IMG/VR virus record: IMGVR_UViG_3300032093_000740 | Location: 1-25,993 of that record | Source of the DNA: a virus | Direction: 5' to 3' (one strand) | DNA: 25,993 nt | Shown here: positions 1,975-25,993 of the stretch, in pieces | Layout of the letters: every line of letters begins with the position of its first letter | Numbering within the stretch: the first letter of the stretch is position 1 | Notes under the pieces: generated by a model | The model's database searches: none | Seen by the model: only the letters and a program-made list of their open reading frames with translations | What the model was told of the DNA's origin: nothing | Position numbers and translations under genes: made by a program

Positions 1975-2670
1975 ATGACCACATCCGGCACCACTACGTT
2001 TAATCTCGACCTCAACGAGGCTGTTGAAGAAGCCTTTGAGCGTTGTGGTGCTGAGTTGCGCACGGGCTACGATCTCCGTACTGCAAGACGTAGCCTAAAT
2101 CTTCTCTTTGCAGATTGGGCGAACCGTGGCATCAATATGTGGACCATTGAGCAGGGCCAACAAGTCCTGACTCCTGGCACCAATACCTACACGCTGCCCG
2201 CCGACACGGTGGATTTGATTGAGCATGTGATCCGCACGGGTGCGGGCTCTGCATCTACGCAGACGGACTTGACCATCACGCGCATCAGTGTTTCTACCTA
2301 CTCGTCTATCCCGAACAAACTGCAGCAGGCAAGGCCAATCCAAATTTGGATCAACCGCCAAGGCCCTGCTCCGCAGTTCACGGTGTGGCCTACGCCTGAC
2401 AATTCGCAGACGTATACGCTTGTCTACTGGCGGCTTCGCAGGATTCAGGACGCTGGTGCGGGCGGGACGTACACACAAGATGTACCGTTTAGGTTCATCC
2501 CTGCTTTGGTATCGGGACTTGCCTACTACCTGTCCATGAAGATCCCCGGCGCGATGGAGCGCATGCAGGTGCTGAAAGAGCAATACGATATGGCGTGGGA
2601 TCTGGCTAGTTCCGAGGACAGAGATAAGAGTGCTGTCCGGTTCGTCCCGCGTCAACAATTCATATCATGA
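1975..2670 (+). CDS. Head-tail adaptor-like structural protein (P22 gp4-like, putative)
   Basis: The 231-residue soluble protein begins with NLDLNEAVEEAFERCGAEL, then RTGYDLRTARRSLNLLFADW and ANRGINMWTIEQ. The middle is beta-rich (TPGTNTYTLPADTVDLIEHV). The C-terminal part has a helix, FIPALVSGLAYYLSMKIPG. This pattern is that of a large family of phage virion proteins that I associate with head-completion or tail accessory factors joining portal and tail; P22 gp4 is the nearest named analogue, but the match is from memory. It is followed by an ATGA overlap (2667-2670) with the zinc-ribbon gene, implying coupled translation. A second protein with similar opening logic occurs at 3427. Confidence 0.75.
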   Translation: MTTSGTTTFNLDLNEAVEEAFERCGAELRTGYDLRTARRSLNLLFADWANRGINMWTIEQGQQVLTPGTNTYTLPADTVDLIEHVIRTGAGSASTQTDLTITRISVSTYSSIPNKLQQARPIQIWINRQGPAPQFTVWPTPDNSQTYTLVYWRLRRIQDAGAGGTYTQDVPFRFIPALVSGLAYYLSMKIPGAMERMQVLKEQYDMAWDLASSEDRDKSAVRFVPRQQFIS

Positions 2671-3426: not shown

Positions 3427-4077
3427 TTGGACTACGCTGCGCTCAAGGTTGCCTGCGAGGATTACGTCGAGAACACGTTCTCGGCGACTGACTTTGCCAC
3501 AATGACGAAGTTGGCAGAGCAGCGCATCTACAACTCTGTTCAGCTTCCGGCGCTTCGGAAAAACGTTACTGGTACGTTGACGTCTGGCAATCAGTACCTG
3601 TCCGCGCCGACAGACTTCTTGTCTGTCTTCAGTCTTGCAGTCATTGATGCTTCAGGAAACTACGAGTATCTGCTGAACAAGGATGTGAACTTCATCCGCT
3701 CCGCGTTTCCTAACCCGTCCACGACGGGTACTCCAAAGTACTACGCGCTGTTTGGCCCTGACTCGTCAAATTTGACGGAGTTGACGTTCATCCTTGGGCC
3801 GACGCCCAGTGCGAATCTGTCAGCAGAACTGCACTACTTCTACTACCCGGTCAGCATTGTCACTGCCGGTACGTCTTGGTTGGGCGACAACTTTGACTCC
3901 GTGCTGTTCAACGCGGTGCTGGTCGAGGCTGCTCGGTTTATGAAGCAGGAGCCTGACATCGTGGCCGATACGGACAAGCAGTACGTGCAGTCCCTGACGC
4001 TGCTGAAGAACCTGGGTGATGGCAAGAACCGTCAAGATGCCTACCGCAGTGGGCAGGTAAGGACACAGGTGATCTGA
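3427..4077 (+). CDS. Phage structural protein, head-tail adaptor/tail-completion type
   Basis: The start is TTG at 3427 with GAGG (3417-3420) six bases upstream; length is 216 residues. The N-terminus is helical (DYAALKVACEDYVENTFSAT, then MTKLAEQRIYNSVQLPALRK). A conserved middle follows (GNQYLSAPTDFLSVFSLAV, YEYLLNKDVNFIRSAFPNP, GTPKYYALFGP). The C-terminal helix contains WLGDNFDSVLFNAVLVEAAR and the ending is AYRSGQ. This is a highly recurrent virion protein of aquatic podo- and cyanophages whose role is assumed to be in the neck or tail. Like the 1975 gene it is a soluble alpha/beta protein. A specific function is inference from family and position. Confidence 0.8.
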   Translation: MDYAALKVACEDYVENTFSATDFATMTKLAEQRIYNSVQLPALRKNVTGTLTSGNQYLSAPTDFLSVFSLAVIDASGNYEYLLNKDVNFIRSAFPNPSTTGTPKYYALFGPDSSNLTELTFILGPTPSANLSAELHYFYYPVSIVTAGTSWLGDNFDSVLFNAVLVEAARFMKQEPDIVADTDKQYVQSLTLLKNLGDGKNRQDAYRSGQVRTQVI

Positions 4078-4078
4078 T

Positions 4079-4501
4079 ATGGCTATCGTTCAAACGATGA
4101 CCACCAGCTTCAAAGCGGAGCTATTCACGGGCACCCAGGTTTTTGGTACGGACACGTTCAAACTTGCCTTGTACACTTCTGCTGCGGATCTAGGCGCTGC
4201 GACCACGGTCTATTCCTCAACCAACGAAGTGGCTGCAAGCGGGTCATACGTTGCTGGTGGCGGGACGCTGACAGGCGTAACAGTGGCAAGTTCTGGCACT
4301 ACCGCTTGGGTGACGTTTGACAATATCTCATTTACCTCTGCGACCATCACGGCCCGAGGAGCGTTGATATACAACTCCAGCAAGGGAAATAAATCTGTCG
4401 CGGTGCTGGACTTTGGGCAGGATAAGTCCTCCTCTAGTAGTACGTTTACCGTCCAGTTCCCTGTTGCAAATGCAACCAACGCAATCATTCGTATCGCGTA
4501 A
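4079..4501 (+). CDS. Small beta-rich virion protein
   Basis: The 140-residue protein has an N-terminus MAIVQTMTTSFKAELFTG and then a pattern of short beta strands (TFKLALYTSAADLGAATTVY, GGGTLTGVTVASSGTTAWVT, ITARGALIYNSSKGNKSVAV). The 'RGALIYN...GNKSVAVLDFG' segment is a signature I know from a conserved family of phage structural proteins. A decoration or tail-surface role would suit its size and Ser/Thr/Gly composition. It starts one base after the previous stop and is followed by another small beta protein nine bases later. Confidence 0.8.
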   Translation: MAIVQTMTTSFKAELFTGTQVFGTDTFKLALYTSAADLGAATTVYSSTNEVAASGSYVAGGGTLTGVTVASSGTTAWVTFDNISFTSATITARGALIYNSSKGNKSVAVLDFGQDKSSSSSTFTVQFPVANATNAIIRIA

Positions 4502-4510
4502 GGAAATACC

Positions 4511-4951
4511 ATGTCCATGACCAACGCCGCCGAAGCGGCACTTCTCGACCTTCTGTTCCTGAACGTCGATTGGGCGAACATCGGGGACGCCGCTGGCCTG
4601 CAGAACTCGGCTACGGCAGGCTCGTTCTTTATTAGCTTGCACAGCGCAGACCCTGGAGAGGCGGGCAACCAGAGCACCAACGAGATCAGCTACACCGGCT
4701 ACGCCCGCGTGGCTGTGAACCGCACCGCAGGCGGCTGGACGCGAACGGTGTCTACCATTGCCAACACCGCGCTGGTGCAGTTCGGTCAATGTACGGCGGG
4801 CACCGCCACGGCCACACATTTCGGCATCGGCACGGACTCCAGCGGCGCGGGCAATCTGCTGCTCAAGGGTGCGCTGAACAGCAGCCTGTCGATCAGCAAC
4901 GGCATCCAGCCGCAGTTCGCTGCCGGTGCCATGACCGCCACCGTGGACTGA
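4511..4951 (+). CDS. Phage tail/virion surface protein (ISLHSADPGEAG family)
   Basis: The 146-residue protein begins with a short helix (AAEAALLDLLFLNVDW), then FFISLHSADPGEAGNQST, NEISYTGYARVAVNR, GGWTR and ATHFGIGTDSSGAGNLLLKG. These blocks define a common family often annotated as phage tail fibre or structural protein. The layout is a small beta-sandwich-like domain without enzymatic residues. It has AGGAAATACC-type bases just upstream of its ATG. The adjacent genes are also small virion proteins, so a role in tail decoration is likely. The mapping of family to a specific virion location is not certain. Confidence 0.8.
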   Translation: MSMTNAAEAALLDLLFLNVDWANIGDAAGLQNSATAGSFFISLHSADPGEAGNQSTNEISYTGYARVAVNRTAGGWTRTVSTIANTALVQFGQCTAGTATATHFGIGTDSSGAGNLLLKGALNSSLSISNGIQPQFAAGAMTATVD

Positions 4952-4952
4952 T

Positions 4953-5087
4953 GTGACTCTGCGGTACTTTTGCGCCCACTGTCTGCGAGGCCTTGAGCTT
5001 GTGGACAACGAGGTGCAACAGTGCCCGGAGCACCCAGATGGCGCGGTGGATTGGCATGTTGAGGTGACACCCGATGTCGCTGAATAG
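4953..5087 (+). CDS. 44-residue zinc-ribbon-like protein (CAHC ... CPEH)
   Basis: GTG at 4953, one base after the preceding TGA, opens a 44-codon frame ending in TAG at 5085-5087 and overlapping the next gene by 14 bases. The product contains YFCAHCLRGLELVDNEVQQC followed by PEHPDGAVDW: a CxxC knuckle, then CxxH 16 residues later, as expected for a minimal zinc ribbon. I know similar 'CPxHP' mini-ribbons among aquatic phage genes. No clear ribosome site precedes it, so it is probably read by reinitiation after the upstream stop. Without it, 122 bases would be left uncoded in an otherwise gapless operon, which supports its reality. Confidence 0.65.
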   Translation: MTLRYFCAHCLRGLELVDNEVQQCPEHPDGAVDWHVEVTPDVAE

Positions 5088-5928
5088 CGTTCGCGTGCTG
5101 GGCGATGCTGCGGATGGCAGCAACACTTGGCAGTCATTCTTCTACAAGACCACAGGCCCCAACGTCGGCGGGCGCTGGGTGGACACCTCGGTGGGTTCGG
5201 GCATCCCGGTCTATCAGGCTTACGTCGGCTCACAGTTCCAGGCCACACCTGTCTACGGCGAGGGCAACCGGGGCATCTACGCCGGGCCGACGCCGCCAGT
5301 CGGGCTGACCAAGTACCTGCACGCCATGTCCATCGGCACAGCGGGCGTGGGGGTGCCGTCGCACTTCATGCTGTGCGACTACCTCATGTTCTACCCGCTG
5401 GTTGACGGCGACGATGCCGACCCGCAGGCGATGGACAACGCGCTCACGCTGCCCAGATACATGGATGGCCATGGCGTGAGGCTGATGTGCGTGATTGCAA
5501 CGCCGACTGCAAACTCGGTGCAGTGCACGGTCAACTACACCAACAGCAATGGTGTGGCGGGTCGCATAGTGACCTTCGGGGTCACTGCATCGGGCAACAT
5601 TGGCCTGATCGGCAACACAGGCAGCGACAGCATCGTAAGCACGGCGGTGAGCCCGTTCGCGCCCCTGGCTAATGGCGACAAGGGCATCCGGTCGATTGAA
5701 AGCGTCACCTTCTTGGGTGGTGCGGGTGGGTTTGTGAACTTCGTGCTGGTCAAGCCGCTGGCGCAGATTCAGATCTTCGAGGCCAACACACAAGCCGAAA
5801 AGACGTTCTTCAATCAGAACGCCAACGTGCCTGAGATCAAAGAAGGCGCGTATCTGAACATGATCGCGCTGTTGAACACAACCAACTACACCCCCCTGCG
5901 CGGGTGGGTGCAATTTGTCTGGGGATAA
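5074..5928 (+). CDS. Virion structural protein, paralogue A of a tandem pair
   Basis: This 284-residue protein is beta-rich, with GRWVDTSVGSGIPVYQAYVG near residue 30, PSHFMLCDYLMFYPLVDGDD in the middle, and FAPLANGDKGIRSIESVTFL and VPEIKEGAYLNMIALLN towards the end, closing with WVQFVWG. The same block order occurs in the next gene, so the two arose by duplication. There is no signal peptide and no catalytic pattern. I recognise the type as a recurrent structural protein of aquatic phages. It may form part of the tail or capsid surface; the exact role is not known. The ATG lies inside the end of the 44-residue gene. Confidence 0.75.
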   Translation: MSLNSVRVLGDAADGSNTWQSFFYKTTGPNVGGRWVDTSVGSGIPVYQAYVGSQFQATPVYGEGNRGIYAGPTPPVGLTKYLHAMSIGTAGVGVPSHFMLCDYLMFYPLVDGDDADPQAMDNALTLPRYMDGHGVRLMCVIATPTANSVQCTVNYTNSNGVAGRIVTFGVTASGNIGLIGNTGSDSIVSTAVSPFAPLANGDKGIRSIESVTFLGGAGGFVNFVLVKPLAQIQIFEANTQAEKTFFNQNANVPEIKEGAYLNMIALLNTTNYTPLRGWVQFVWG

Positions 5929-5931
5929 AGC

Positions 5932-6810
5932 ATGCCTTTCTCATCGATGGATGATCTGATCAACGAGATGACCAGCGGCAAGTTCAGTCGTGCCGACTGG
6001 AACAAGCTGACAGGCGCTGCCGCCTACGCGGCGGGCCGGTGGTATGACATGAGCAACCTGAACGGCACTCCCGTGGCAAACGCTTGGGCGGGCACTGCGC
6101 TGGCGTGGCGCACTTGCGATGAGGCCACGGGCAACGGCACGCAGATCTTCGGCATCCCGCACGGTGGCAACGTCAGCCCGGACACCAAGCACATCCTGAA
6201 CGTCTCGGCAGTGACGGCGGTGGCCACGGGCGTGCCTGCACAACTGATGCTGGTGGACCTGCAAGGCTACTGGCCCGGCATCAGCAACAACAGTGCTGTG
6301 GCTCAGACGCTGACGGGCACGCCGAGCCTGCGCTACACCAACGGGGCCGGGTGCCGACTGTTCTGGGTGCAGACCGCCGCAGCGGGTGCCACGGCCCAAA
6401 ACATCGCGCTCAGCTACAGCAACACGGTGCCGACTTCGGGCAGGGCGCTGCCGGTCACAGTCGCCATGACTGCCTCGGCGATTGCAGGCCACATCAGCCA
6501 CTCCGGCACTGCGGCCAACAACTACGGGCCGTTCCTGCCCCTGGCGTCCGGCGACACAGGCGTGTCCAACGTGGCCTCGGTCACCATGTCCGCCGCAAAC
6601 ACCGGCACCGGGGCGCTGTGCCTTGCGCGGCCTTTGCTGACCTTGCCGATCACGACAGCCTCGGTGGCGGGCGAGCGCGACCTGTTGAACCAGATCCCGA
6701 GCCTGCCCCAGGTCAAAGACGGCGCGTGCTTGGTGTGGCTGTACTTCGCGGGCGCGGCCACGGCGGCGAGCACCAACTTCTACGGCTCGCTGGAGATGGC
6801 GTGGGGCTGA
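5932..6810 (+). CDS. Virion structural protein, paralogue B of a tandem pair
   Basis: The 292-residue product is alignable by eye with the preceding 284-residue protein: GRWYDMSNLNGTPVANAWAG, PAQLMLVDLQGYWPGISNN, FLPLASGDTGVSNVASVTMS, LPQVKDGACLVWLYF and the ending SLEMAWG match the corresponding blocks in the same order. It differs by an N-terminal helix (SSMDDLINEMTSGKFSRADW) that may act as a separate attachment segment. It is very GC-rich (one hand-counted line is 65%). It starts three bases after paralogue A and its 3' end overlaps the next gene by ten bases. It is likely a virion surface or tail component; no enzymatic motif is present. Confidence 0.75.
   Translation: MPFSSMDDLINEMTSGKFSRADWNKLTGAAAYAAGRWYDMSNLNGTPVANAWAGTALAWRTCDEATGNGTQIFGIPHGGNVSPDTKHILNVSAVTAVATGVPAQLMLVDLQGYWPGISNNSAVAQTLTGTPSLRYTNGAGCRLFWVQTAAAGATAQNIALSYSNTVPTSGRALPVTVAMTASAIAGHISHSGTAANNYGPFLPLASGDTGVSNVASVTMSAANTGTGALCLARPLLTLPITTASVAGERDLLNQIPSLPQVKDGACLVWLYFAGAATAASTNFYGSLEMAWG
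6792..6795 (+). promoter_or_regulatory. Ribosome binding site for a GTG start at 6801
   Basis: GGAG lies five bases before GTG 6801, within the end of paralogue B. The reading frame is open much further upstream (from 6351), but that extension is a GC-driven shadow of paralogue B, so this site is used to set the start. Confidence 0.55.
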
Positions 6811-7652
6811 AGCAGAACACCACATTGCTGGCTCAGATGCCGCTGCGCCACCTCGGGGGCGCGGTGGGCACGCTGCGCCCGATGTGGGGCCGCACGGATC
6901 TGCGCAACCAGTCCGTGGGCCAGGGCATCCCGTCCAAGCTGGCGGGCATCCCCTCCGGGCACCTCGCGCCATCGTCGTGGGTGCTACCGTACAAGCCGGG
7001 GGCGATGTCGTCGTTCACCAATCTGGTGGTGACGGTCACGCCGGGGCTGCTAAATCTTGCGGCTGGCGTTAATATTAACGGCTCTACGACGGTCACGATT
7101 ACTGTCAACCCGGCAGACGGGCAACTGATCGTCTCGGCGGTCGGCAACGCCTCCATCACGTTCAACCTTGCGGCCAACTTGGCCGGCGCTCTGTCGGCAT
7201 CGGGCAGCACAGCAGTCACGTTCACGGTCAACAACGCCACGCTTGGGGCCATCGTTGACGCTGTCGGCGCCACGCTGGTGCAGTTCTCGGCTAGCGCCAC
7301 GCCACGCGCCACGGGCAACCTGTCGGGCGACATCACGCCGTTTACAGAACTCAGCCCGCAAAATTTAGCGGCGGCGGTATGGAGTGCTTTGTCCAGCGCA
7401 TACAACGACCCCGGCACGATGGGCGAGTTGCTAAACTCTGCGGGTACGGCGGCTGATCCACTGCTAGGTATCGTAGAAGGCACTCTGACCTTGCGTGACG
7501 TTATGCGGCTATTGCTTGCGGTCAATGCTGGAGATGCCACTGGTTTGGAAGGGAGCACAATGGTGTTCCGCAGTGTTGACGGCGCGACTATCCGAGTGCA
7601 GGCTTCTTACACAACCGGTACAAGAGACGTAACAACTTTGAACCCGACATGA
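6801..7652 (+). CDS. Beta-rich virion/tail protein with conserved C-terminal phage domain
   Basis: With GTG 6801 as start the protein has 283 residues; ATG 6837 is an alternative. The N-terminal part (GTLRPMWGRTDLRNQSVGQG) is followed by repeated beta segments of the type 'GSTTVTITVN' and 'GSTAVTFTVN', suggesting two or three small beta modules at about residues 80-170. Next comes NLAAAVWSALSSAYNDPGTM. The C-terminus TLRDVMRLLLAVNAGDATG, then MVFRSVDGATIRVQASY, matches a common phage module that ends many tail-associated proteins ('TLeqmmRlmlAalaGk...tfRdvnd...R'). It is therefore probably a tail or head-decoration component. The last four bases overlap the next gene (ATGA). Confidence 0.75.
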   Translation: MGLKQNTTLLAQMPLRHLGGAVGTLRPMWGRTDLRNQSVGQGIPSKLAGIPSGHLAPSSWVLPYKPGAMSSFTNLVVTVTPGLLNLAAGVNINGSTTVTITVNPADGQLIVSAVGNASITFNLAANLAGALSASGSTAVTFTVNNATLGAIVDAVGATLVQFSASATPRATGNLSGDITPFTELSPQNLAAAVWSALSSAYNDPGTMGELLNSAGTAADPLLGIVEGTLTLRDVMRLLLAVNAGDATGLEGSTMVFRSVDGATIRVQASYTTGTRDVTTLNPT

Positions 7653-8158
7653 GTTACGCAGGCACTTACTTCGGCAGCTACTTCGGTAGTTACAACGGAG
7701 CAGTTTCCTCTGGTACAAGTGTCATTGTTCAGGTTATTGGAGTTCAAGCCCAAGGTTTCATTGGGAATGTCTCTGTCACTACGGCACTGTGGAACATCAT
7801 TGATGACACGCAGATCCCAAATTGGCAGATTGTTGTAAATACGCAGACTTCATCGTGGGGCAATGTTCCAACACCGCCAGCTCCGGGCTGGGCAGATGTG
7901 CTGAGCACGCAGAGTCCAAACTGGCAAAGTTCCTTTACGGCATCGGGCTCTTGGATTACCATCCCATCTGGGCAAACGCCTAACTGGCAACTGATATTAG
8001 ACGCCCAATCACCGGGGTGGGCAGCGGCAGGGACGATTCAAACACCGGGATGGACCGCAGCGGGAACAAGTCAAACGCCGGGATGGTCGGTAGTGCCCGA
8101 TACGCAAGCCCCTGCATGGGCGCAGATCTCTAACCCCCAGTCTCCGAACTGGCACTAA
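7649..8158 (+). CDS. Tryptophan-repeat virion protein (11-residue repeats)
   Basis: This 169-residue protein has an N-terminal aromatic-glycine stretch (MSYAGTYFGSYFGSYNG) and a short valine-rich segment. From residue 48 it consists entirely of a repeat with one Trp every 11 residues: W at 48, 59, 70, 81, 92, 102, 113, 124, 135, 146, 157 and 168. Only one unit is 10 long. The consensus is W-x-x-[IV]-x-x-x-Q-[ST]-P-[NG], as in WNIIDDTQIPN and WSVVPDTQAPA. The regularity implies a solenoid or extended fibre with stacked tryptophans. It lies between a beta tail protein and a tail-fibre-like gene, so I infer a fibre, spacer or carbohydrate-contacting role. It begins in an ATGA overlap. Confidence 0.8.
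   Translation: MSYAGTYFGSYFGSYNGAVSSGTSVIVQVIGVQAQGFIGNVSVTTALWNIIDDTQIPNWQIVVNTQTSSWGNVPTPPAPGWADVLSTQSPNWQSSFTASGSWITIPSGQTPNWQLILDAQSPGWAAAGTIQTPGWTAAGTSQTPGWSVVPDTQAPAWAQISNPQSPNWH
7790..8152 (+). repeat. Array of eleven 33-base units coding 11-residue Trp repeats
   Basis: Eleven units (ten of 33 bases, one of 30) plus a closing TGG fill this stretch. The DNA units are diverged (for example CAAACACCGGGATGG and CAAACGCCGGGATGG in the most similar neighbours near 8040-8085), while the W and the Q-x-P pattern stay fixed. Protein-level selection is therefore acting on an old expansion. The most similar units lie at the 3' end. Confidence 0.85.
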
Positions 8159-8161
8159 ATC

Positions 8162-9151
8162 ATGGCTTCATACACCACAAGTCTTCGGCTGGTCCAGCCT
8201 AATACCGGGGAGTACTCTGGTACGTGGGGCACCCAGGTCAATACGGGCTTGACGGCGCTGGTGGACACCTCCATCGCGGGGACCGCCACGATTACCATGA
8301 CGGCAGCGGACTACACGCTGTCCTCAAACAACGGCGCAACCGACGAAGCGCGGGCGATGGTGCTGAACCTGACGGGCTCCCCTGGACTGGCGCGAAATGT
8401 GATCTGTCCTGCGGTCAGCAAGGTTTACATCGTCTTCAACAACACGGGCTTTGCACAAACGCTCAAGACCTCTGCTGGGTCTGGGATCTCGGTCCCCAAT
8501 GGGTCCACGGCCTTTCTGCGTTGCAATGGCACAGACGTAGTAACGGCGACGAACTACTTTGGCTCCCTGACGCTTGGCTCAGCGCTGCCCGTAGCTTCTG
8601 GTGGTACGGGAGCAGCCACTCTGACTGGCGTTCTCAAAGGCAACGGCACTTCGGCGTTCACTGCCGCTACTGCGGGCACTGACTACGTGGCCCCCGGAAC
8701 AGCCACAACTTTCACGGCAACGCAAACCTTCAGTGGTTCGTCCAGTACGTTGGCTACTGTCTTGACGGACGCCGCAGAAGTAGTGACGATTTCCGCCACG
8801 GCGGCAACGGGTACGATCAACTACGACATCACCACGCAGTCGGTGCTGTACTACACCACGAACGCCTCGGCCAACTGGACGGTGAACTTCCGCGCCAGCA
8901 GCGGCACAAGCCTGAACACGGCGATGAGCACGGGGCAGAGCGTGACGGTGGCGTTCCTTGTTACCCAAGGAACCACGGCGTACTACAACAGTGCAGTGCA
9001 GGTGGATGGTGCTTCGGTAACGCCGAAATGGCAGGGTGGCTCCGCACCAACGGTGGGTAACGTATCAGGTATTGACGTGTACGCCTACACAATTATTAAA
9101 ACGGGGGCAGCAGCTTTCACCGTTTTGGCCTCTCAAACGAGGTTTGCATAA
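8162..9151 (+). CDS. Tail-fibre-like / receptor-side virion protein
   Basis: This 329-residue protein starts MASYTTSLRLVQPNTGEYSG, then TWGTQVNTGLTALVDTSIAG, a hallmark of a very common phage tail or appendage protein family. The conserved continuation includes NNGATDEARAMVLNLTGSPG and AVSKVYIVFNNTG. A hinge LPVASGGTGAATLTGVLKGN (about residues 141-160), a motif often seen in tail fibres, leads to a second domain with TQSVLYYTTNASANWTVNFR and DGASVTPKWQGGSAPTVGN. The parts look like a virion-attached base and a distal beta domain. It is followed by the beta-propeller gene in a TAATG overlap, so the two may form one appendage. No depolymerase motif is visible. Confidence 0.85.
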   Translation: MASYTTSLRLVQPNTGEYSGTWGTQVNTGLTALVDTSIAGTATITMTAADYTLSSNNGATDEARAMVLNLTGSPGLARNVICPAVSKVYIVFNNTGFAQTLKTSAGSGISVPNGSTAFLRCNGTDVVTATNYFGSLTLGSALPVASGGTGAATLTGVLKGNGTSAFTAATAGTDYVAPGTATTFTATQTFSGSSSTLATVLTDAAEVVTISATAATGTINYDITTQSVLYYTTNASANWTVNFRASSGTSLNTAMSTGQSVTVAFLVTQGTTAYYNSAVQVDGASVTPKWQGGSAPTVGNVSGIDVYAYTIIKTGAAAFTVLASQTRFA

Positions 9152-10404
9152 TGCCGTTAATCGGTACTCGTGGTGTCGCCTCATCAAGAGGAGTTGGGTT
9201 TCTATCCGTTGCTAATATCGGTGGCCCGTATTGGATTGGCTCTATCTCATCTTATAACTATTATATTTTTACCACCGTAGACTACGACGGTAACGTGTAC
9301 TTATTGGCATCAAGTCCCGGATTTCCATATGATGTCTATATTATAAAATACAATTCTATCGGTGTATTACAGTGGCAAAAAACTTGGAATACTACAGTTT
9401 CTGGGTTTAGTGGCGTCCACGGCCTTTCATTTTTTGACGTTGACAATAACGGCAATATTTACTTTTCTACATCCATACCCGAGATCTCAACAGGCGCTCT
9501 TGGTTTTGCAATAGTTAAACTTAACTCTTCTGGTTCAATAGTTTACAATAACTTTGTACAACAATACTTTTTAGGGTCCCAAGGTGGTTTTTTAGATAAA
9601 GCGACAGGGGAGGTTTATATCGTAGGGAAATCAGGACCTACGCAAGAGCTAGGATTTTTTATTAAATTCAATGCGTCGGGCGTGGAGCAAACTAGTTTCG
9701 AAACAACAGCATATGTAGGAAGCCATTATCTGTCAGGTGTAGTTCTTGACAGCTCTAAAAATATCTACGTTGGAGGCTGGGACAACGGGGGTACTTACGT
9801 TTCAAAGTACAACACTAGCGGTACTCAACAATGGAAAAAGTATTTATCTGGGTATGGCGCTGCAAACGATCTTGCGGTGGATCAAAACAATAATATCTAC
9901 GCTGCTGGTTTTTCAGGTGTTACTTCTGTGCCACGTTTGTTGAAGACTGATAGCAGTGGGGCGATACAGTGGCAAAGGACTTTAACAGGAGCTACCGGTG
10001 GTAACCAATCTGTCGCTGTAGACGCTTTCAATAACGTGTATGCGTTAGGCGACATGGATGGAAAAGCACAGATAACAAAATACAACAGTTCAGGTTCTAT
10101 AGTATGGCAAAGAAGCCTCACTGCGGGTGGGTTCGGATACAGCCTAAAGATCGATAGGTCAAACAATCTTTACGTCGGCACAAACACTTCATTTGCCAAG
10201 CTACCTTCAGACGGGTCTTTAACAGGAACGTACACAGTAGGCAGCTCTTCGGTGGTGTACGCGTCTAGTGCATGGACAAACACAACTACAACAGATTTTT
10301 GGGGTGATAGTATCGCAACAGATAGTGCCCTGTCTGTGACGAGAACTAGCCCAACTGGAACCATAGGTACCGCGTCTTTGACGTTAAATTTGACGCAGTT
10401 GTAA
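9151..10404 (+). CDS. Seven-bladed beta-propeller (SBBP-like) putative receptor-binding protein
   Basis: This 417-residue protein contains seven 'D-x-x-x-N-x-Y' blade signatures with Tyr at about 50, 104, 156, 206, 250, 297 and 341 (GNVYLLA, GNIYFST, GEVYIVG, KNIYVGG, NNIYAAG, NNVYALG, NNLYVGT). Outer strands read like LQWQKTW, QQWKKYL, IQWQRTL and IVWQRSL. This matches SBBP/NHL-type propellers, which bind ligands at the cell surface. Residues 355-417 form a Ser/Thr-rich tail. Two sampled 60-base lines are only 30% GC against about 65% near 6.5 kb, so the gene looks horizontally acquired. Its place directly after a tail-fibre-like gene suggests host recognition; that role is inferred. Confidence 0.8.
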   Translation: MPLIGTRGVASSRGVGFLSVANIGGPYWIGSISSYNYYIFTTVDYDGNVYLLASSPGFPYDVYIIKYNSIGVLQWQKTWNTTVSGFSGVHGLSFFDVDNNGNIYFSTSIPEISTGALGFAIVKLNSSGSIVYNNFVQQYFLGSQGGFLDKATGEVYIVGKSGPTQELGFFIKFNASGVEQTSFETTAYVGSHYLSGVVLDSSKNIYVGGWDNGGTYVSKYNTSGTQQWKKYLSGYGAANDLAVDQNNNIYAAGFSGVTSVPRLLKTDSSGAIQWQRTLTGATGGNQSVAVDAFNNVYALGDMDGKAQITKYNSSGSIVWQRSLTAGGFGYSLKIDRSNNLYVGTNTSFAKLPSDGSLTGTYTVGSSSVVYASSAWTNTTTTDFWGDSIATDSALSVTRTSPTGTIGTASLTLNLTQL

Positions 10405-11335: not shown

Positions 11336-13252
11336 ATGCCGCTCAAGAAGCTACAACTCAAGCCCGGTGTCAACCGCGAAGGAACCCGCTATTCCACTGA
11401 GGGCGGTTGGTTTTCGTGCGACAAGATTCGCTTTCGCTCAGGACAGCCTGAAAAGATTGGCGGTTGGCAACAAATTACCAACGATCAATTCATCGGGGTC
11501 TGTCGAACGTTGTGGGCTTGGGCGGCGCTTAACGGGCTTAAATACGTTGGCGTAGGTACGCACCTAAAATACTACATTGCGCTTGCTGGCGGCGGCGTGT
11601 ACAACGATATTACCCCGATCAGGAAGACTGTCAATCCAATGCTGGGGCCTAATCCTCCTGGCACAGGCAATCCTTTTGCGGGTAATGGTACAACCACAGT
11701 AACTGTGACAGATGTCGCTCATGGCGGCATCACCGGAGATTACGTTACGTTCAGTGGAGCTACAGGCACTTATGCTTCCACATTCAATGCTGAGTTTCAA
11801 ATTACGGTTCTGACCGTTGATACGTACACAATCACTACGGGCTCGTCAATCGCAGCGGGTTCGTATGGTGGTGCGGCAGTTGTCGCCAATTACCAAGTTA
11901 ATACAGGCGACGCTATCCAAGTGCCGCTTACCGGGTGGGGCGCGGGTGGCTGGGGCGGTGGTGGGTGGGGTATTGGCACTACAGGTGCCGCGCTTACAAA
12001 CATCCGCATTTGGAACCACGACAACTTTGGTGAAGACCTGATCTTTGGCCCGTTAGATGGCGGGATGTATTACTGGGATCATTCTTCTGGATTAACGACT
12101 CGTGGTGTAGCGCTCAGTTCATTGGCTGGAGCTTCAGACGTTCCAACGGTGCAGCATCTTTTAACGGTATCTGACACTTCTCGGTTTGTGCTGGCGTTCG
12201 GCTGCAACGACTACGGTTCCAGCGTGCAGGACACCATGCTCATTCGCTGGTCGGACCAAGAGAGCGCTGTCAACTGGACTCCTGCAGCCACTAACCAAGC
12301 GGGCAGTGTGCGTTTGTCCCACGGCTCAAGAATCGAAGCTGTAGCGCAGGTTCGCCAAGAGTTTTTGGTGTGGACTGATACGGCTATGTACTCACTGCAG
12401 TACCTCGGCCCGCCAATTGTCTGGGGCACGCAGCTTCTGTCCGACAACACCTCCATTGTCAGCGACAGAGCCTGGGCCACTGCTGCAGGCATTAACTATT
12501 GGATGGGTAACGGCAAGTTTTATCGCTACGACGGTCGCGTTGAAACGCTTGTCTGCGACCTCAGGCAGTATGTCTTTAGCGACTTTAATGCCAACCAAGC
12601 ACAACAAGTTTTTGCATCCACCAACGAGCAGTTTAACGAGATCTGGTGGTTCTACTGCTCCGCAAGCTCTACGGTTGTGGATCGCTACGTCATATACAAC
12701 TATGTAGAAAAGGCATGGTACTACGGCAACCTGGGCCGCACGGCTTGGATTGACACAAGCGTTTCAAGCGATGTGCCGATGGCTGCGGATTACAACAACC
12801 GCTTGCTGTATCAAGAAACCGGAGTAGACGACAACGCTACAGTCACGACACTTCCAATTGCAGCGTTTATTACTTCGTCCGAGTTTGACATAGACGACGG
12901 ACACAACTTTGGTTTTGTCTGGCGAGTAATCCCTGACGTCAATTTCACAGGATCTACGGCTACCAGCCCGACGATGAATCTGACGCTGCTGCCTTTGCAG
13001 AATTCGGGCTCAGGGTATACCCGAGGCACTGTGCCGGTTCCGTCTGTGACTACAGATATGTCGGTGGCCGGGGATAACTCCTATCCTGTGGTGCGAAGCA
13101 CAACGGTGCCGATTGATCAGTACACAGGACAGGTCAACATCCGCGTGCGCGGTAGGCAAATGTCTATCAAGGCAGCATCAGATCAGATCGGCGTGCAGTG
13201 GCAGTTGGGTTCACCCAGAATTGATGTTCGCTTGGATGGGCGTAAATCGTGA
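11336..13252 (+). CDS. Tail hub / packaged-DNA stabilisation protein (P22 gp10-like, putative)
   Basis: This 638-residue protein opens with LKKLQLKPGVNREGTRYSTE, GGWFSCDKIRFRSGQPEKIG and ends with VRGRQMSIKAASDQIGVQWQ, LGSPRIDVRLDGRK. These are typical ends of a phage family that I relate to the P22 gp10 tail hub (Phage_stabilise). Internal beta motifs such as DGGMYYWDHSSGL, IRWSDQESAVNW and YWMGNGKFYRYDGRVETL look like propeller-type strands. Residues 110-185 hold an inserted Gly/Thr beta module, and residues 198-215 (TGWGAGGWGGGGWGIG) form a Trp/Gly linker. Longer than P22 gp10 (about 470 residues), which fits the insert. It would plug the head-tail junction. It follows the lysis genes by two bases. 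Confidence 0.75.
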   Translation: MPLKKLQLKPGVNREGTRYSTEGGWFSCDKIRFRSGQPEKIGGWQQITNDQFIGVCRTLWAWAALNGLKYVGVGTHLKYYIALAGGGVYNDITPIRKTVNPMLGPNPPGTGNPFAGNGTTTVTVTDVAHGGITGDYVTFSGATGTYASTFNAEFQITVLTVDTYTITTGSSIAAGSYGGAAVVANYQVNTGDAIQVPLTGWGAGGWGGGGWGIGTTGAALTNIRIWNHDNFGEDLIFGPLDGGMYYWDHSSGLTTRGVALSSLAGASDVPTVQHLLTVSDTSRFVLAFGCNDYGSSVQDTMLIRWSDQESAVNWTPAATNQAGSVRLSHGSRIEAVAQVRQEFLVWTDTAMYSLQYLGPPIVWGTQLLSDNTSIVSDRAWATAAGINYWMGNGKFYRYDGRVETLVCDLRQYVFSDFNANQAQQVFASTNEQFNEIWWFYCSASSTVVDRYVIYNYVEKAWYYGNLGRTAWIDTSVSSDVPMAADYNNRLLYQETGVDDNATVTTLPIAAFITSSEFDIDDGHNFGFVWRVIPDVNFTGSTATSPTMNLTLLPLQNSGSGYTRGTVPVPSVTTDMSVAGDNSYPVVRSTTVPIDQYTGQVNIRVRGRQMSIKAASDQIGVQWQLGSPRIDVRLDGRKS

Positions 13253-19998: not shown

Positions 19999-22900
19999 AT
20001 GGCGCTGTACCGTGTCCAAGCCCCGAACGGTAAGACATATCAGATCGAGGGACCTGCGGGGGCACCTCAAGCGCTGATCGTCCAGGCCCTGCTTGCTCAG
20101 TACCCTGATGCGGCGAAGCCGCCGCCTGAAACAACCGTCCTCGGGCAGGTTGGTGAAGCGTTCAAGGGCTTGGTGCCCGGTGCTGTAGGGCTGGTTGAAT
20201 CAGCGGCTGTGGGTGCCTCTGCGCTCTTGCCTGAGGACTACGAGAAGACGGCGCGGGAGAAGATTGCCAGCATCGCTGGCGCAGCCAAAGCACCGTTCGC
20301 TGCCTCTGCAGGGTACGAGGAGTCAGTCGGGCGTAAGCTGGGCGAAGCCCTCGGCTCAACGGTGCCGTTCTTGGCTGCGGGTCCTCTTGGCCTTGCGGGT
20401 CGTATCGGTGCGGTTGGTTTGGGTGTTGGAGCCGGTGCTGGTGAAGCACGTGGACGTGCCGAGAAGGAAGGTGCTACTGCGGAGCAGCGCAGCACCGCGA
20501 CGGCGCTCGGGATCATCCCCGGGGCGATGGAAGTCTTCGCACCCTTCCGCATCCTGTCTCGTATCCCTGATGCTGCCACGGCTCAGGGCGTGCAGTTGGT
20601 CAAGCGTGCTGCGCTTGCAGGTGGTGAGGAAGCTGCTCAGGAAGCAGCGTCGAACTTCGCCCAGAACCTGATCGCCAAGGGCGTCTACAAGCCTGAGCAG
20701 GAACTCATCGAGGGGCTGGGTGAGGCAGCGGCCTACGGTGGTGCAACTGGTGCCATCGTGCAGGGCTTGATGGACTTGGCCTTGGGTCGTCGCGCACGTG
20801 CTGCGCAGCCTGCCCCGGGAACCCTACCCGGGGAAAAGCCCATCGAGCGTGCCGAGCGCCTTGCTGCTGAACAAGCTGCGGCTAAAGCTGCTGCACAACC
20901 CCCTGCACCTCCTGCGGCGGGCATCCTACCTCCGCCTGACACCTACGCTGAACTTGTTCTGTACAGCGAACAACTGAAGACGCTTCCGAAATCCAAGGAG
21001 CGTGATGAGGCGTTGAAGGCAGCGGCTGAAAAACGCAAGGCACTCAACGTAGCGTACATTGAGGAGCAGCGCTCCACTAGCGAAGCAGCCAAGGGGTTCA
21101 TGACTGCCGAAGAAGCGGCAGCAGCACAGATCACCCCCCGTGAAGAAGTCACGGCAGCGGCTGAAGAGCAGCCCGCAGCAGCTATCGAAGAGCCCAAGGT
21201 TAGAAAGCCCGGTGAACCCCCTGCGACTGGCTTGCAGCCCGCTGACATTGAAGCCCTCGGCGTCAGTAAAAAGCAGCCGATCTATCGGCGCATGTTGGGC
21301 AAAGATCTTGAGGACCCTGCGCAACGAGACGCTGTCCTTGCTGACATCGAGAACTACCTTGTGCGGGGTAACGGCACTGAAGAGTCCCGTACCAAGCTGA
21401 CGGAGTTCAAGGCCAAGTTTGCTCCACCCCCAGTACAACCGGAGACCCCAAGTGTTGCAGAACCTCAGCCAGAAGCAGGTGGAGCAGGCGTTCCAGTGGC
21501 TGGCGGACCCGCTGCCGTCAGCACCGCCGAAGGAGTTGGACCTGAACCAGATGGAGTGGTTTCTCCTGTCGCGGATGTTACAGGGGCTGCTGGAAGAGAA
21601 GGAACAGAGCCGCCTGCAGTAACGCCTCCCACGCCCGCTCAGATTGAGCGTGAACTCACTTCGCTGATTGAGTCTGGTCGGATCACTGAAGAGCAGGCCG
21701 CCGACTACCGTGCTGAACTGCTGGGTGAAGCTGAAGAAGCCCCCACGACAGTGATGGGGCAAGCGCAGTCGGATGCGCTCAGCCCTGCTGAAACTGGCAC
21801 GCTCAAGCAGAAGCTGGAGAAGGCTGGTGCAACCGGCGTCTTTGAAGTGAGGGACGGCAAGCCCATCCTCGACATACCGGCTGTACGGCAAGCGCTCAAG
21901 GGGCGTGACCCCAAGATGCTCAAGGCGGTGCTGACCTACATTGGCGTGGATGAGGACGGTGACTACCTGCCCACTACCTACTCTGCCGACGAAGCTGCAC
22001 AGTCTGTAGGACTTGCAAAAAGCTCCGGTGCCAACGTGCGCCGCATCGCTGAGACCTTGGGCATCACGGCTGACGTGATTAGCCGGTTCCAGGCTGCGCA
22101 GACTGGGGCTATCGGTATTGCCAAGAACGTCTCTGAGGCAAGCCTATCCGGCATCTCGGTGGAGAACCCCAAGGCTGGGATTCTGTATGAAGCCCCTGCA
22201 AAACCTGTTCAAACAGATGCGGAATACGACGCGCTTGTTGCTCGTGTAAAAGCCCTACAAGTTGACGGTAAAGCTCCTAAGAAAGACGCTCCTAACTTCA
22301 AGGAATACAAAGAAGCTGAGAAAGCGCTTAAGCAGGCTACACCAAAGGTGCAGGCTTTCTTCCGCCCCGCACTGACCAAGACGGGTTCTTTTGACTTCAG
22401 CAAGCTCGACACCCGCCAACTGGCTGACATCTACTCACGCGCTTCTCGGTACGACGCCAAGGACAACACTGCTGTGATGCAGCAGTTGAACGCAGAGGTT
22501 GCAGCCCGCCGCAAAGCTGACAGAGTGGGTACTGACGCAGCTATCAACCGTGCCTATGGCAAGCTGGTTGCAGAGGAAGAAGCGCAGACAGAGGAAGAAG
22601 GAATCATCCCTGAGGAAGTTGCACCGGATCAAGTGCTGACCGAAGAGGAAGCAGCACAAGCAGAGGCAGCGGCAGAAGCGGAAGCAGAGGCAGCGCGGGA
22701 TAGCACTACACGACGACTGAGCGACGAAGACACTGACTTCCAACAGACCCGCACCGGCCCCGTTGACTTGGAAAACTCCAAGCAGATGGACGCCGCCCTG
22801 CGTGGGAAGTCTTTCACCGAGTCGATCGACTACGCGATCAGGAACGCCCGAGATGACCTCGATCGACAGATTCTGGTCAAAGTCAAGCGCCGCGCTGAGG

Positions 22901-25900
22901 AACTAGCGAACAACGGCGTGCAGTTCGACTTCGAACTTACCCCGCAGGGTAGGGTTCTGACAGGTGCTCTTGGCGTTGCAACAACGACTCCTGCTGGGCT
23001 CGGTGACGCTATGGCTGTCAAGGTCACACTCAATGGCTTTACAGGCAATCCAAGCAACACCATCAATCAAGAGACGTTGGTACACGAGCTAATTCACGCC
23101 GTAACGTCAGCCCAAATCACATATGCTCCGCAGAGTACAGCAGCGATCAAGCTCCGTGCTCTCCAGCAAGAACTCGTCAGTATCTATAACCAAAGGTATA
23201 AAGCTAAAACTCTCACTGCTACTGAAAAGGGCGTGATCCTCAACGCTTTGGAGAACCCCAAGGAACTCCTAGCATACGGCCTTACCAACGGAGAAACCCA
23301 AAACTGGCTAGCGTCGATTACTGACCCGTCTGGGGGCACGTTCCTCAGTCGGATGTTCAACATCGTCTCCCAGGTGCTTGGGCTGAAGGGTAAGGAAACC
23401 AGTGCGCTTGCACGGTTGATGGCTGTGTCTGAAGAGATTCTTGACGAGTCTCTGGTTCCGTATATCGCTGAAGCAAATAGGCGGGGGTTGTCTTTCGGTA
23501 AGCAAGCTAACACAACTGGTATCCCAAGTTGGGTGCTGAAAGAATCTCGTGGCCTGAAGCCTGTATGGAACAAAGGCCCTGTTGCCCTGTACGAAGGTAC
23601 GTCAACTGCAAACAAGACAATCTACGTTGCTGCCAAGCAAGGTGTAATAGTCACTAACGTAGACATTCGCAGCTACAGTGGTGCTGGATTTACCCCCGCT
23701 GAACTCGCTGAATTGAAGCAGGCTGCAGACAATCTCACCCCGCAGGCCAGCCCGCGCCTCACCCCGCAGACCGAAGCAGCCGTCAAGGATGTAGATGTCA
23801 TCGGTGAGAAAGAGCGTCAGACGCTGACCCAACGCATCGCGCAGGACCTCAAGGGCAACCCCGCACTCAAGCTGCGGATGAAGTTCACCGACTCGCTGGC
23901 CCCGCTGGAAGACTTCTTCGTCAACGCCTACGGTGGCGCTACCCGTACTGCCAAGGGGCGGTTGAACCCGATGGTGCTCTTGTCCCGGGCGCTCGACTCA
24001 TTGCGCGTCAGCAAGGCTGTGCAGGAACAAGGTGGGCTGGGCTTCGACAGCGGGCTCATCGTTGCCAAGGATCTGCAGGATGCCGAGGGCCGACCCGTCA
24101 GCTACACAGGCGTGCTGAACCGCATCGCTGAGGCTGCCAAACAGCGGGGTGAGACCTACGAAGCCTTCCGCACCAAGCTCGACACGGTTCTCTACGGGCA
24201 CCGGGAGCACGGTCTGCGTGAGACCAACAAGACCCTGCCTAAGACTGATCGGATCGAACTACTCCTGCCCGACGCCAAGATCGATGAACTGGAAGCAGCC
24301 TTCCAGAAAGACGACTTCATCAAGCAGATCTCCGCCGACCTCGACACCATCCGCTTCAACCTGCTGGACACGCTGGTTGATACAGGGCGCATCTCCAAGG
24401 ATCGAGCCCAGGACTACAAGGACGCCACGGGCTACATCCCCTTCAACCGACTCGGTGACTACGAGAAGGCGTATCAGTCCACCAAGGGTGCCAACCGTGG
24501 TGTCGCAGCCCTACGTAACATCCGCAAGCTGGAAGGCAGTGGGCGCAAAACGACTTCACCGGTCGAGAACTTCTCCGGGCTGGTTGACTGGGCAACAAAG
24601 GAGGCGATGAAGAACCACGCCGCCCTGAGTGCACTCAAGGATATGGCCCTGATGGGTGCAGCATTCAAGCGCCCGACCAAGCCTGCCAAGGACTCACCGG
24701 GGGACATGGTCACCGTCTACGACAACGGCAAGCCCGTCGAGTACTACGTACCGGACCCAGCGCACTTCATTGCGTTCAGTATCCAAGACCCGGTCATCCC
24801 AGACTCGTTCAAGCTACTACAGAAAGGTTCTCAGATCCTGCGTGCTGGTGTGACATCCATGCCACCGTTTGCGATCAAGCAGGTCTTCGACGACATCGTC
24901 CGTGCCTACACCTACGCAGGGGTGAAGAACAACGCAGCGCTTGTCAAGAGCGTGATGCTGAACTTCCCCAAGAACTGGGTGAACGAGATCTTCAAGAAGA
25001 AGCCCAAGGACATCAAGAACTTGGAGGCCCTCGGTATCGTCGGCACGTTCGACTTCAGCCAGCAGGGCAACCTCAAGAACATCCTTGAGGAAGCTGGGGC
25101 GAAGGAAGAAGGTCTTGGCTCCAAGATCATGCGCGTGATGGAAGCCGGTGCCAAGGCATCGGACCTCGCAGTGCGTCAAGCTGTCTACGATCAGGTGATG
25201 AAGGAGACCAACGGTGACAAGGCTCAGGCTGAGTCTGCTGCACGGGAGATCATCAACTTCAGCCGCCGTGGTTCATCCCAGGTAATGAATCTGCTGATCA
25301 GCGTCATCCCCTTCTTCAATGCCTATGCGCGAGGCATGGACAAGCTGGCAACGGCAGCGGCTGGGGGTGTTGTTGGGCAGAGCACAGGCACCGCACGGTC
25401 CATGTTCTACAAGCGCATGGGGGTGATGACCTCGATGGGCTTGTTGTATGCGCTGTTGATGCAGGATGATGAGGAGTACCAGCAGCTACCTGACCACGTG
25501 CGGGATACCAACTGGATACTGCCCTACGGGAAGGAACTGGGCTTCGTACCTGCCATCCCGATTCCTGCTGAACTCGCGTTCTTCTTCAAGGCCATCCCTG
25601 AGCGCATCGTCCGCTACTACAAGATGTATGGCACCGAGGAGGAGCAGACTGCACTCGACGTGGTGGGTAACTTAGCCAAGCGGGGGGTCGATGTTTTCTC
25701 ATCGCCCAACATCACACCGCAGGTGTTGCGCCCGTTCGTTGAGAACATGACGAACTACTCGTGGTTCCTTGGCAGACCACTGGAGTCTCAGGCTCAGCAG
25801 GCACTGCGTCCGTTTGAGCGGTACGGTACTGGCACATCAGATGCGATGAAGGCCCTCGCCAAGAGTTTGGAGGACGCTGCCAACGCCACAGGTATCGAAG

Positions 25901-25993
25901 CCTTCGCTGTCTCTCCGATCAAGCTGGAGAACGCTGTGCGCGGTATCTTCGGCACGGCTGCAGGGCTGGGCCTGTCGATGGCTGACATGATGA
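19999..25993 (+). CDS. Giant internal/polyvalent virion protein with HExxH peptidase motif (3' end outside window)
   Basis: One frame stays open from ATG 19999 to the last base, at least 1998 codons. Visible parts: residues 1-36, a small module (ALYRVQAPNGKTYQIEGPAG) seen at the start of other large phage proteins; 50-180, a glycine-zipper region (LGLAGRIGAVGLGVGAGAG); 270-315 and 475-520, Pro/Ala linkers; 855-900, an acidic linker. Residues 1029-1033 are HELIH (context ETLVHELIHAVT), with E1089 in NPKELLAYG as candidate third zinc ligand, making a zincin-type peptidase likely. Residues about 1290-1600 are helical. Residues about 1615-1800, with SDLAVRQAVYDQVM, INFSRRGSSQV and ISVIPFFNAYARGMDKL, resemble the LPD38 large-polyvalent-protein domain. 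Such proteins are thought to be injected with phage DNA; that role here is inferred. Confidence 0.85.
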   Translation, partial: MALYRVQAPNGKTYQIEGPAGAPQALIVQALLAQYPDAAKPPPETTVLGQVGEAFKGLVPGAVGLVESAAVGASALLPEDYEKTAREKIASIAGAAKAPFAASAGYEESVGRKLGEALGSTVPFLAAGPLGLAGRIGAVGLGVGAGAGEARGRAEKEGATAEQRSTATALGIIPGAMEVFAPFRILSRIPDAATAQGVQLVKRAALAGGEEAAQEAASNFAQNLIAKGVYKPEQELIEGLGEAAAYGGATGAIVQGLMDLALGRRARAAQPAPGTLPGEKPIERAERLAAEQAAAKAAAQPPAPPAAGILPPPDTYAELVLYSEQLKTLPKSKERDEALKAAAEKRKALNVAYIEEQRSTSEAAKGFMTAEEAAAAQITPREEVTAAAEEQPAAAIEEPKVRKPGEPPATGLQPADIEALGVSKKQPIYRRMLGKDLEDPAQRDAVLADIENYLVRGNGTEESRTKLTEFKAKFAPPPVQPETPSVAEPQPEAGGAGVPVAGGPAAVSTAEGVGPEPDGVVSPVADVTGAAGREGTEPPAVTPPTPAQIERELTSLIESGRITEEQAADYRAELLGEAEEAPTTVMGQAQSDALSPAETGTLKQKLEKAGATGVFEVRDGKPILDIPAVRQALKGRDPKMLKAVLTYIGVDEDGDYLPTTYSADEAAQSVGLAKSSGANVRRIAETLGITADVISRFQAAQTGAIGIAKNVSEASLSGISVENPKAGILYEAPAKPVQTDAEYDALVARVKALQVDGKAPKKDAPNFKEYKEAEKALKQATPKVQAFFRPALTKTGSFDFSKLDTRQLADIYSRASRYDAKDNTAVMQQLNAEVAARRKADRVGTDAAINRAYGKLVAEEEAQTEEEGIIPEEVAPDQVLTEEEAAQAEAAAEAEAEAARDSTTRRLSDEDTDFQQTRTGPVDLENSKQMDAALRGKSFTESIDYAIRNARDDLDRQILVKVKRRAEELANNGVQFDFELTPQGRVLTGALGVATTTPAGLGDAMAVKVTLNGFTGNPSNTINQETLVHELIHAVTSAQITYAPQSTAAIKLRALQQELVSIYNQRYKAKTLTATEKGVILNALENPKELLAYGLTNGETQNWLASITDPSGGTFLSRMFNIVSQVLGLKGKETSALARLMAVSEEILDESLVPYIAEANRRGLSFGKQANTTGIPSWVLKESRGLKPVWNKGPVALYEGTSTANKTIYVAAKQGVIVTNVDIRSYSGAGFTPAELAELKQAADNLTPQASPRLTPQTEAAVKDVDVIGEKERQTLTQRIAQDLKGNPALKLRMKFTDSLAPLEDFFVNAYGGATRTAKGRLNPMVLLSRALDSLRVSKAVQEQGGLGFDSGLIVAKDLQDAEGRPVSYTGVLNRIAEAAKQRGETYEAFRTKLDTVLYGHREHGLRETNKTLPKTDRIELLLPDAKIDELEAAFQKDDFIKQISADLDTIRFNLLDTLVDTGRISKDRAQDYKDATGYIPFNRLGDYEKAYQSTKGANRGVAALRNIRKLEGSGRKTTSPVENFSGLVDWATKEAMKNHAALSALKDMALMGAAFKRPTKPAKDSPGDMVTVYDNGKPVEYYVPDPAHFIAFSIQDPVIPDSFKLLQKGSQILRAGVTSMPPFAIKQVFDDIVRAYTYAGVKNNAALVKSVMLNFPKNWVNEIFKKKPKDIKNLEALGIVGTFDFSQQGNLKNILEEAGAKEEGLGSKIMRVMEAGAKASDLAVRQAVYDQVMKETNGDKAQAESAAREIINFSRRGSSQVMNLLISVIPFFNAYARGMDKLATAAAGGVVGQSTGTARSMFYKRMGVMTSMGLLYALLMQDDEEYQQLPDHVRDTNWILPYGKELGFVPAIPIPAELAFFFKAIPERIVRYYKMYGTEEEQTALDVVGNLAKRGVDVFSSPNITPQVLRPFVENMTNYSWFLGRPLESQAQQALRPFERYGTGTSDAMKALAKSLEDAANATGIEAFAVSPIKLENAVRGIFGTAAGLGLSMADMM

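Follow-up and report, generated by a model that had tools for sequence, protein, structure and literature searches.

The window analysed here, a 25,993-base IMG/VR virus record, carries a short gene whose product is dominated by regularly spaced tryptophans. The gene and the features within it are the following:

7649–8158 (+), gene of the Trp-array protein, 169 aa, a candidate rope or fibre anchor
7655–7696 (+), aromatic-glycine N-terminus, residues 3–16, YAGTYFGSYFGSYN
7739–7777 (+), lone copy of the G-V-x-A-T-G repeat, GVQAQGFIGNVSV, residues 31–43
7790–8152 (+), 12 units of the form W-x-x-[IV]-x-x-x-Q-[ST]-P-x
7922–7951 (+), aberrant fifth linker of 10 residues, without QxP

The Trp codons are found at 7790, 7823, 7856, 7889, 7922, 7952, 7985, 8018, 8051, 8084, 8117 and 8150, giving spacings of 11, 11, 11, 11, 10, 11, 11, 11, 11, 11 and 11 residues, with the lone 10 between W92 and W102. 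Ten spacings of 11 were thus observed, whereas none of 20,000 shuffles of the residues gave more than four, and the 11-residue period described in the first-pass annotation is confirmed from the reading frame. The same annotation held that the DNA units have diverged and that the pattern is kept by selection, which is also borne out: the 33-nt units share a mean pairwise DNA identity of 46% (background 26%), TRF returns a single call on the array (2.5 copies, 8006–8086), and the pattern must be regarded as selected because dN/dS against relatives that are approximately 86% identical is 0.24–0.32 with all 12 Trp, and the lone 10-residue spacing, retained. Of the consensus originally proposed, the W spacing stands, whereas Q and P are needed only loosely, one or both being absent between W59 and W70, W70 and W81, and W92 and W102. 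A fifth linker without Q, common to the window family, also occurs in the 12-unit arrays L056, L132 and L282. Searches of Pfam, PHROGs and the PDB with the window protein returned no matching family or entry, and its tblastn matches in named phages, mostly tape-measure proteins at 22% identity, were dismissed as chance.

Gene neighbourhood and the array family

Several neighbours of the array gene have recognizable relatives among phage tail proteins:

1975–2670 (+), second SU10-adaptor-like protein (PF24175, E 3.7e-12)
3427–4077 (+), SU10-type tail adaptor, candidate 12-fold partner (PF24175, SU10_adaptor, E 4e-18)
4079–4501 (+), 140-aa beta protein, phrog_644
4511–4951 (+), homologue of the GP4 fibre I protein gp80, 146 aa (PF23140, E 3.7e-20; 8jou_a, E 1.7e-4)
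8162–9151 (+), tail-fibre-like protein downstream of the array gene, with a conserved N-terminal domain, TGxxSGTWGTxxNxNL
11336–13252 (+), phrog_3287 virion structural protein, in the position of the annotated stabilization protein of DSL-LC04 and MW202692

The gp80 homologue shares a block with the array gene and lies about three ORFs upstream of it, and the proximity of the adaptor, the gp80 homologue and the tail-fibre gene places the array protein within the tail-fibre gene block of a short-tailed phage. Related loci are organized in a similar manner, most having a beta protein of about 148 aa directly upstream, the adaptor two to three genes upstream and the fibre gene directly downstream. 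In profile searches a beta-protein homologue was found in 308 of 357 array loci and the tail-fibre N-terminal domain in 324 of 361. The adaptor, beta-protein and fibre profiles match at similar rates at every array length, so the partner of the array has probably remained unchanged while the number of units varied. The beta protein of the window is predicted by AlphaFold2 with a pLDDT of 82, and Foldseek aligns it weakly to GP4 gp80 (8jou_a, TM 0.52, E 0.4); the comparison of gp80 with the ~148-aa neighbour by hhalign is not significant (probability 3%), and the resemblance is best described as weak. No relative of the fibre N-terminal domain was found in the PDB.

Other genes of the window can be noted in passing. 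Two similar proteins of 284 and 292 aa (5074–5928 and 5932–6810, +), encoded after the gp80 homologue and before the array gene, distinguish the window lineage from most array loci and have look-alikes in MW202692 (L382, 10521–12566). In many loci the adaptor and beta-protein genes are separated by one for a conserved, probably helical protein of about 95 aa (e.g., L381, 407–694), which was not seen in the window. The fibre block also holds a 417-aa beta-propeller protein with SBBP and Reg_prop repeats (9151–10404, +), a probable HNH-type homing endonuclease of 162 aa, recognized by eye from the motif CDNPKCCNPKHL, lies amid the structural genes (1211–1699, +), and an ORF of at least 1998 aa that runs past the window end (19999–25992, +) probably encodes a large DNA-ejection protein.

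The Trp array itself is the C-terminal module of proteins in hundreds of IMG/VR contigs, at least 120 in each of four pattern scans, and thus defines a very common, hitherto unnamed phage protein family. The family unit is W-x-x-[IV]-x-D-S-Q-T-P-N, with W conserved at 97%, Q at 99% and P at 89%, and arrays usually end in W-x-[DE]-[IV]-A(-A)-stop. Upstream of the array lie interchangeable regions, mostly G-V-x-A-T-G repeats present in many copies with a period of 20–22 residues, sometimes ETATATD or PVDAPNP repeats, and the N-terminus is often aromatic-glycine (e.g., GWGRGTWGQGTWG). Relatives carry GWGxGxWG at the place of YAGTYFGSYFGSYN in the window protein, and their aromatic-Gly dipeptides average 2.4 in the first 45 residues compared with 0.3 in the middle of the ORF. 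In the window protein this architecture is abbreviated to the aromatic-Gly start and one G-V-x-A-x-G unit, after which come the 12 Trp units. The C-terminal location of the array, preceded by N-terminal repeat regions that can be exchanged, makes a role as the protein's anchor more likely than one as its displayed part.

Among named phages, DSL-LC04 alone was found to encode a family relative, the match coming via a longer family member. Its protein WJZ48131.1 (OR003939.1), annotated as hypothetical, has the aromatic-Gly N-terminus, the G-V-x-A-T-G repeats and the Trp array, with 4 units in 376 aa compared with 12 units in 169 aa in the window. Here, too, the array gene follows the adaptor and the beta protein, the gene order being adaptor protein, 95-aa protein, 145-aa beta protein and array protein. 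MW202711 contains a divergent array of 6 Trp without QTP, and in the bacterial genomes scanned only two genuine-looking arrays were present (L399, with 4 units, and L411, degenerate) along with much chance sequence.

Unit number and its restriction

Repeat proteins are usually almost free in length. Whether the number of units varies among relatives was raised in the first-pass annotation, and it does vary; the unexpected result is that it is restricted to divisors of 12. The 367 distinct complete arrays among the matches listed, counted once duplicates and chance frames had been taken out (although a few chance frames persist among the 2s), comprise 32 arrays of 2 units, 122 of 3, 150 of 4, one of 5, 52 of 6 and 10 of 12, with none of 7–11 or more than 12, and 2, 3, 4, 6 and 12 are precisely the divisors of 12 above 1. 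Several scans were combined because they differ in the lengths that they can see, one requiring at least four units and another exactly three. An initial impression that unit numbers are only even was discarded in this way: the first scan was blind to 3-unit arrays, and the exactly-three scan showed them to be common. The scan of the whole collection for exactly five units yielded two contigs, one of them a true 5-unit array (L255), which is an exception to the rule, and the other a 6-unit array with an indel, and all 35 contigs with at least seven intact Trp proved, when read through, to carry 6- or 12-unit arrays.

The scarcity of five units is most evident in two samples that are unbiased with respect to length above two units, obtained by scanning for the last two units followed by an IAA-stop or EVA-stop ending. 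Among the matches listed, the IAA-stop sample contains 20, 40, 48, 1 and 14 arrays of 2, 3, 4, 5 and 6 units, and the EVA-stop sample 6, 14, 76, 0 and 7; geometric interpolation predicts approximately 26 and 23 five-unit arrays, respectively, against the 1 and 0 observed. An insertion of 24 residues divides the array of the L258/L018 family into 10 + 2 units, the total still being 12. As few as two or three origins may underlie all 12-unit arrays, and in three members of this set, L269, L271 and L261, the N-terminal part is like that of 3-unit proteins. L329 has a 6-unit array apparently cut 3 + 3 by a stop, due to either a sequencing error or a nonsense mutation.

The ~148-aa neighbours of 308 loci were used to build a FastTree tree, on which parsimony requires 86 changes of array length; as the tree was built from about 140 columns, single switch events are uncertain. 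The changes include 31 between 3 and 4, 24 between 4 and 6, 10 between 3 and 6, 7 between 2 and 3 and one into 5; of the 34 that cross 5, one lands on it. Locus pairs with nearly identical neighbours also differ in length (13 pairs 3/4, 11 pairs 4/6 and 4 pairs 3/6), and with switches this frequent the restriction cannot be due to shared ancestry alone. L087 even carries two array genes (1–473 and 4087–4920) of 6 and 4 units with almost identical ends, a duplication with length change.

These counts bear on two explanations in which no ring is involved. Recombination of larger blocks can alter repeats, and the missing 5 could then be a mutational effect, with units changing two at a time or by whole-array copying; however, one-unit steps are common and 5 is passed over, as follows from the frequent changes between 3 and 4 and between 2 and 3, which are also seen between loci with near-identical neighbours, and we consider this explanation very unlikely. 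Equally little favoured, and if anything less probable still, is a surface solenoid or carbohydrate-binding fibre whose unit number reflects chance and inheritance. Aromatic repeats are present in sugar-binding proteins, yet free variation of this kind is difficult to reconcile with lengths limited to 2, 3, 4, 6 and 12 despite frequent change, and the window protein has neither a predicted fold nor a Pfam, PHROG or PDB match. Of the earlier suggestion of a solenoid or fibre, the link to a virion fibre is well supported by the gene context (adaptor, GP4 fibre-I homologue and tail-fibre gene), while the solenoid is not, and contact with surface sugars found no support.

The structural prediction in question was obtained with AlphaFold2 for a single chain from a shallow alignment of ten 12-unit relatives and has a pLDDT of 30, a pTM of 0.11 and no secondary structure. 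A foldless chain would fit a peptide that becomes ordered only on its partner, although the small alignment of 10 sequences allows little to be concluded from it. The first-pass annotation had named disorder together with loss of the spacing in homologues as evidence against its reading; the monomer prediction is indeed disordered, whereas the spacing is clearly not lost.

A proposed attachment belt on a 12-fold tail ring

Length switches that are frequent yet confined to divisors of 12 suggest that assembly obeys a strict rule. In short-tailed phages, portals and adaptors are dodecameric, and if 12 equivalent sites are filled by chains of n units, n must divide 12. We propose that the array is a virion attachment belt whose W units sit on a 12-fold tail ring such that units times chains equals 12, a reading to which we give about an even chance. 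The array protein would thereby be a member of a widespread group of rope-like fibre proteins in short-tailed phages; each W-x-x-[IV] motif would dock to one subunit of the ring, for which the SU10-type dodecameric adaptor, or proteins ringing it, is the most likely candidate, and the D-S-Q-T-P-N stretch would bridge to the next subunit. With 12 units making a full circle, an n-unit chain would be present in 12/n copies (6, 4, 3, 2 or 1), and the 12-unit chain of the window would form one belt per virion. The unit number might then act as a molecular counter whose evolutionary change allows phages to shift among 6, 4, 3, 2 and 1 fibres per virion with the ring always filled, a suggestion that we hold tentatively, at slightly short of an even chance. 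In L087, the 6- and 4-unit genes could not together fill one 12-site ring.

The docking model is proposed on the basis of phage SU10, in which the adaptor is a dodecamer that carries long fibres, and the fibre dock loop of the nozzle protein gp17 holds a trimeric fibre through W839, W847 and W857 in a pseudo-threefold arrangement, each Trp touching one fibre subunit (PMC9509320). Trp thus recurs every 8–10 residues in the SU10 loop and every 11 in the window protein. The engagement of one Trp per subunit is seen in the structure of SU10 and proposed by analogy for the window array, and the three Trp of SU10 lie inside the nozzle protein, whereas the 12 of the window form part of a separate ORF. 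The SU10 loop holds a trimer, whereas the Trp family has 2–12 C-terminal units whose lengths fit a 12-fold partner, and no sequence homology between the two is known.

The same precedent could be taken to mean that the array is wound around the N-termini of the oligomeric tail fibre whose gene lies just downstream, with one Trp per fibre subunit. The SU10 loop does hold a trimer, the N-terminal domain of the downstream gene is conserved across the array loci at the frequency given above, and 3, 6 and 12 units would match one, two and four trimers. Trimers, however, suit neither the commonest length, 4, nor the arrays of 2; in addition, a single fibre domain family is found at all array lengths, and this domain has no relative found in the PDB. 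Such a fibre dock is therefore rather unlikely. Alternatively, a set of 12 W units, contributed by a single chain or by several, could close into a 12-blade or 12-strand ring that needs no partner as a template, which would account for the identical divisors of 12. We regard this self-closure as improbable, since the predicted 12-unit chain is foldless (on the shallow 10-row alignment) even though the ring would form within the chain, and since units of only 11 residues that include a QTPN turn offer little room for a core.

For the belt on a tail ring, a second comparison is offered by phage GP4, whose fibre I protein gp80 (PF23140) has a homologue in the window. A structural study of GP4 reportedly describes a rope protein that strings gp80 beads, five fibres and a 15-fold fibre-carrying adaptor ring. 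The PDB entry 8JOU contains 10 gp80 chains and 3 fibre-tail-adaptor chains, and a 15:12 mismatch in GP4 is cited in PMC10925440. The gene that follows gp80 in GP4-like phages combines ~20-residue repeats with a short periodic C-terminal array, and we infer that it encodes the rope; relatives in the Trp family likewise have many copies of 20–22-residue repeats ahead of their array, and the window protein has one copy. Three 9-residue C-terminal units were recognized by eye in JC1 (JC1_54), BcepIL02, CSP3, PBC5 and Itty13, and four in POI1126. By analogy, three units in each of five ropes would suggestively match the 15-fold GP4 collar. No PDB chain matched the window protein or the JC1 candidate rope. 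The GP4-like arrays lack Trp, repeat every 9 residues and fit a 15-fold ring (3 × 5), whereas arrays of the Trp family contain Trp, repeat every 11 residues and have unit numbers that divide 12. Because the fibre-carrying ring of GP4 is 15-fold, the partner of the Trp family could differ; five copies on a 15-fold ring are contradicted by lengths of 2, 4, 6 and 12, which do not divide 15, and by the near absence of 5.

If the belt is confirmed, the copy number of virion fibres could be read from sequence in many uncultured phages, the matching of appendages to the 12-fold portal–adaptor axis would become testable from genomes, and a likely role would be assigned to this abundant family.

Arrays of a different kind were also encountered, namely C-terminal 9-residue F/Y-x-V-P-x-E-x-R repeats in L385 (Microcystis phage Mae-JY04, 9343–11220) and in L524–L531. 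A scan for 9-residue F/Y arrays found 8 contigs, too few for a test, with approximately 3, 4 or 6 anchors, which is consistent with the divisor rule, and these arrays are possibly a second anchor type under the same rule.
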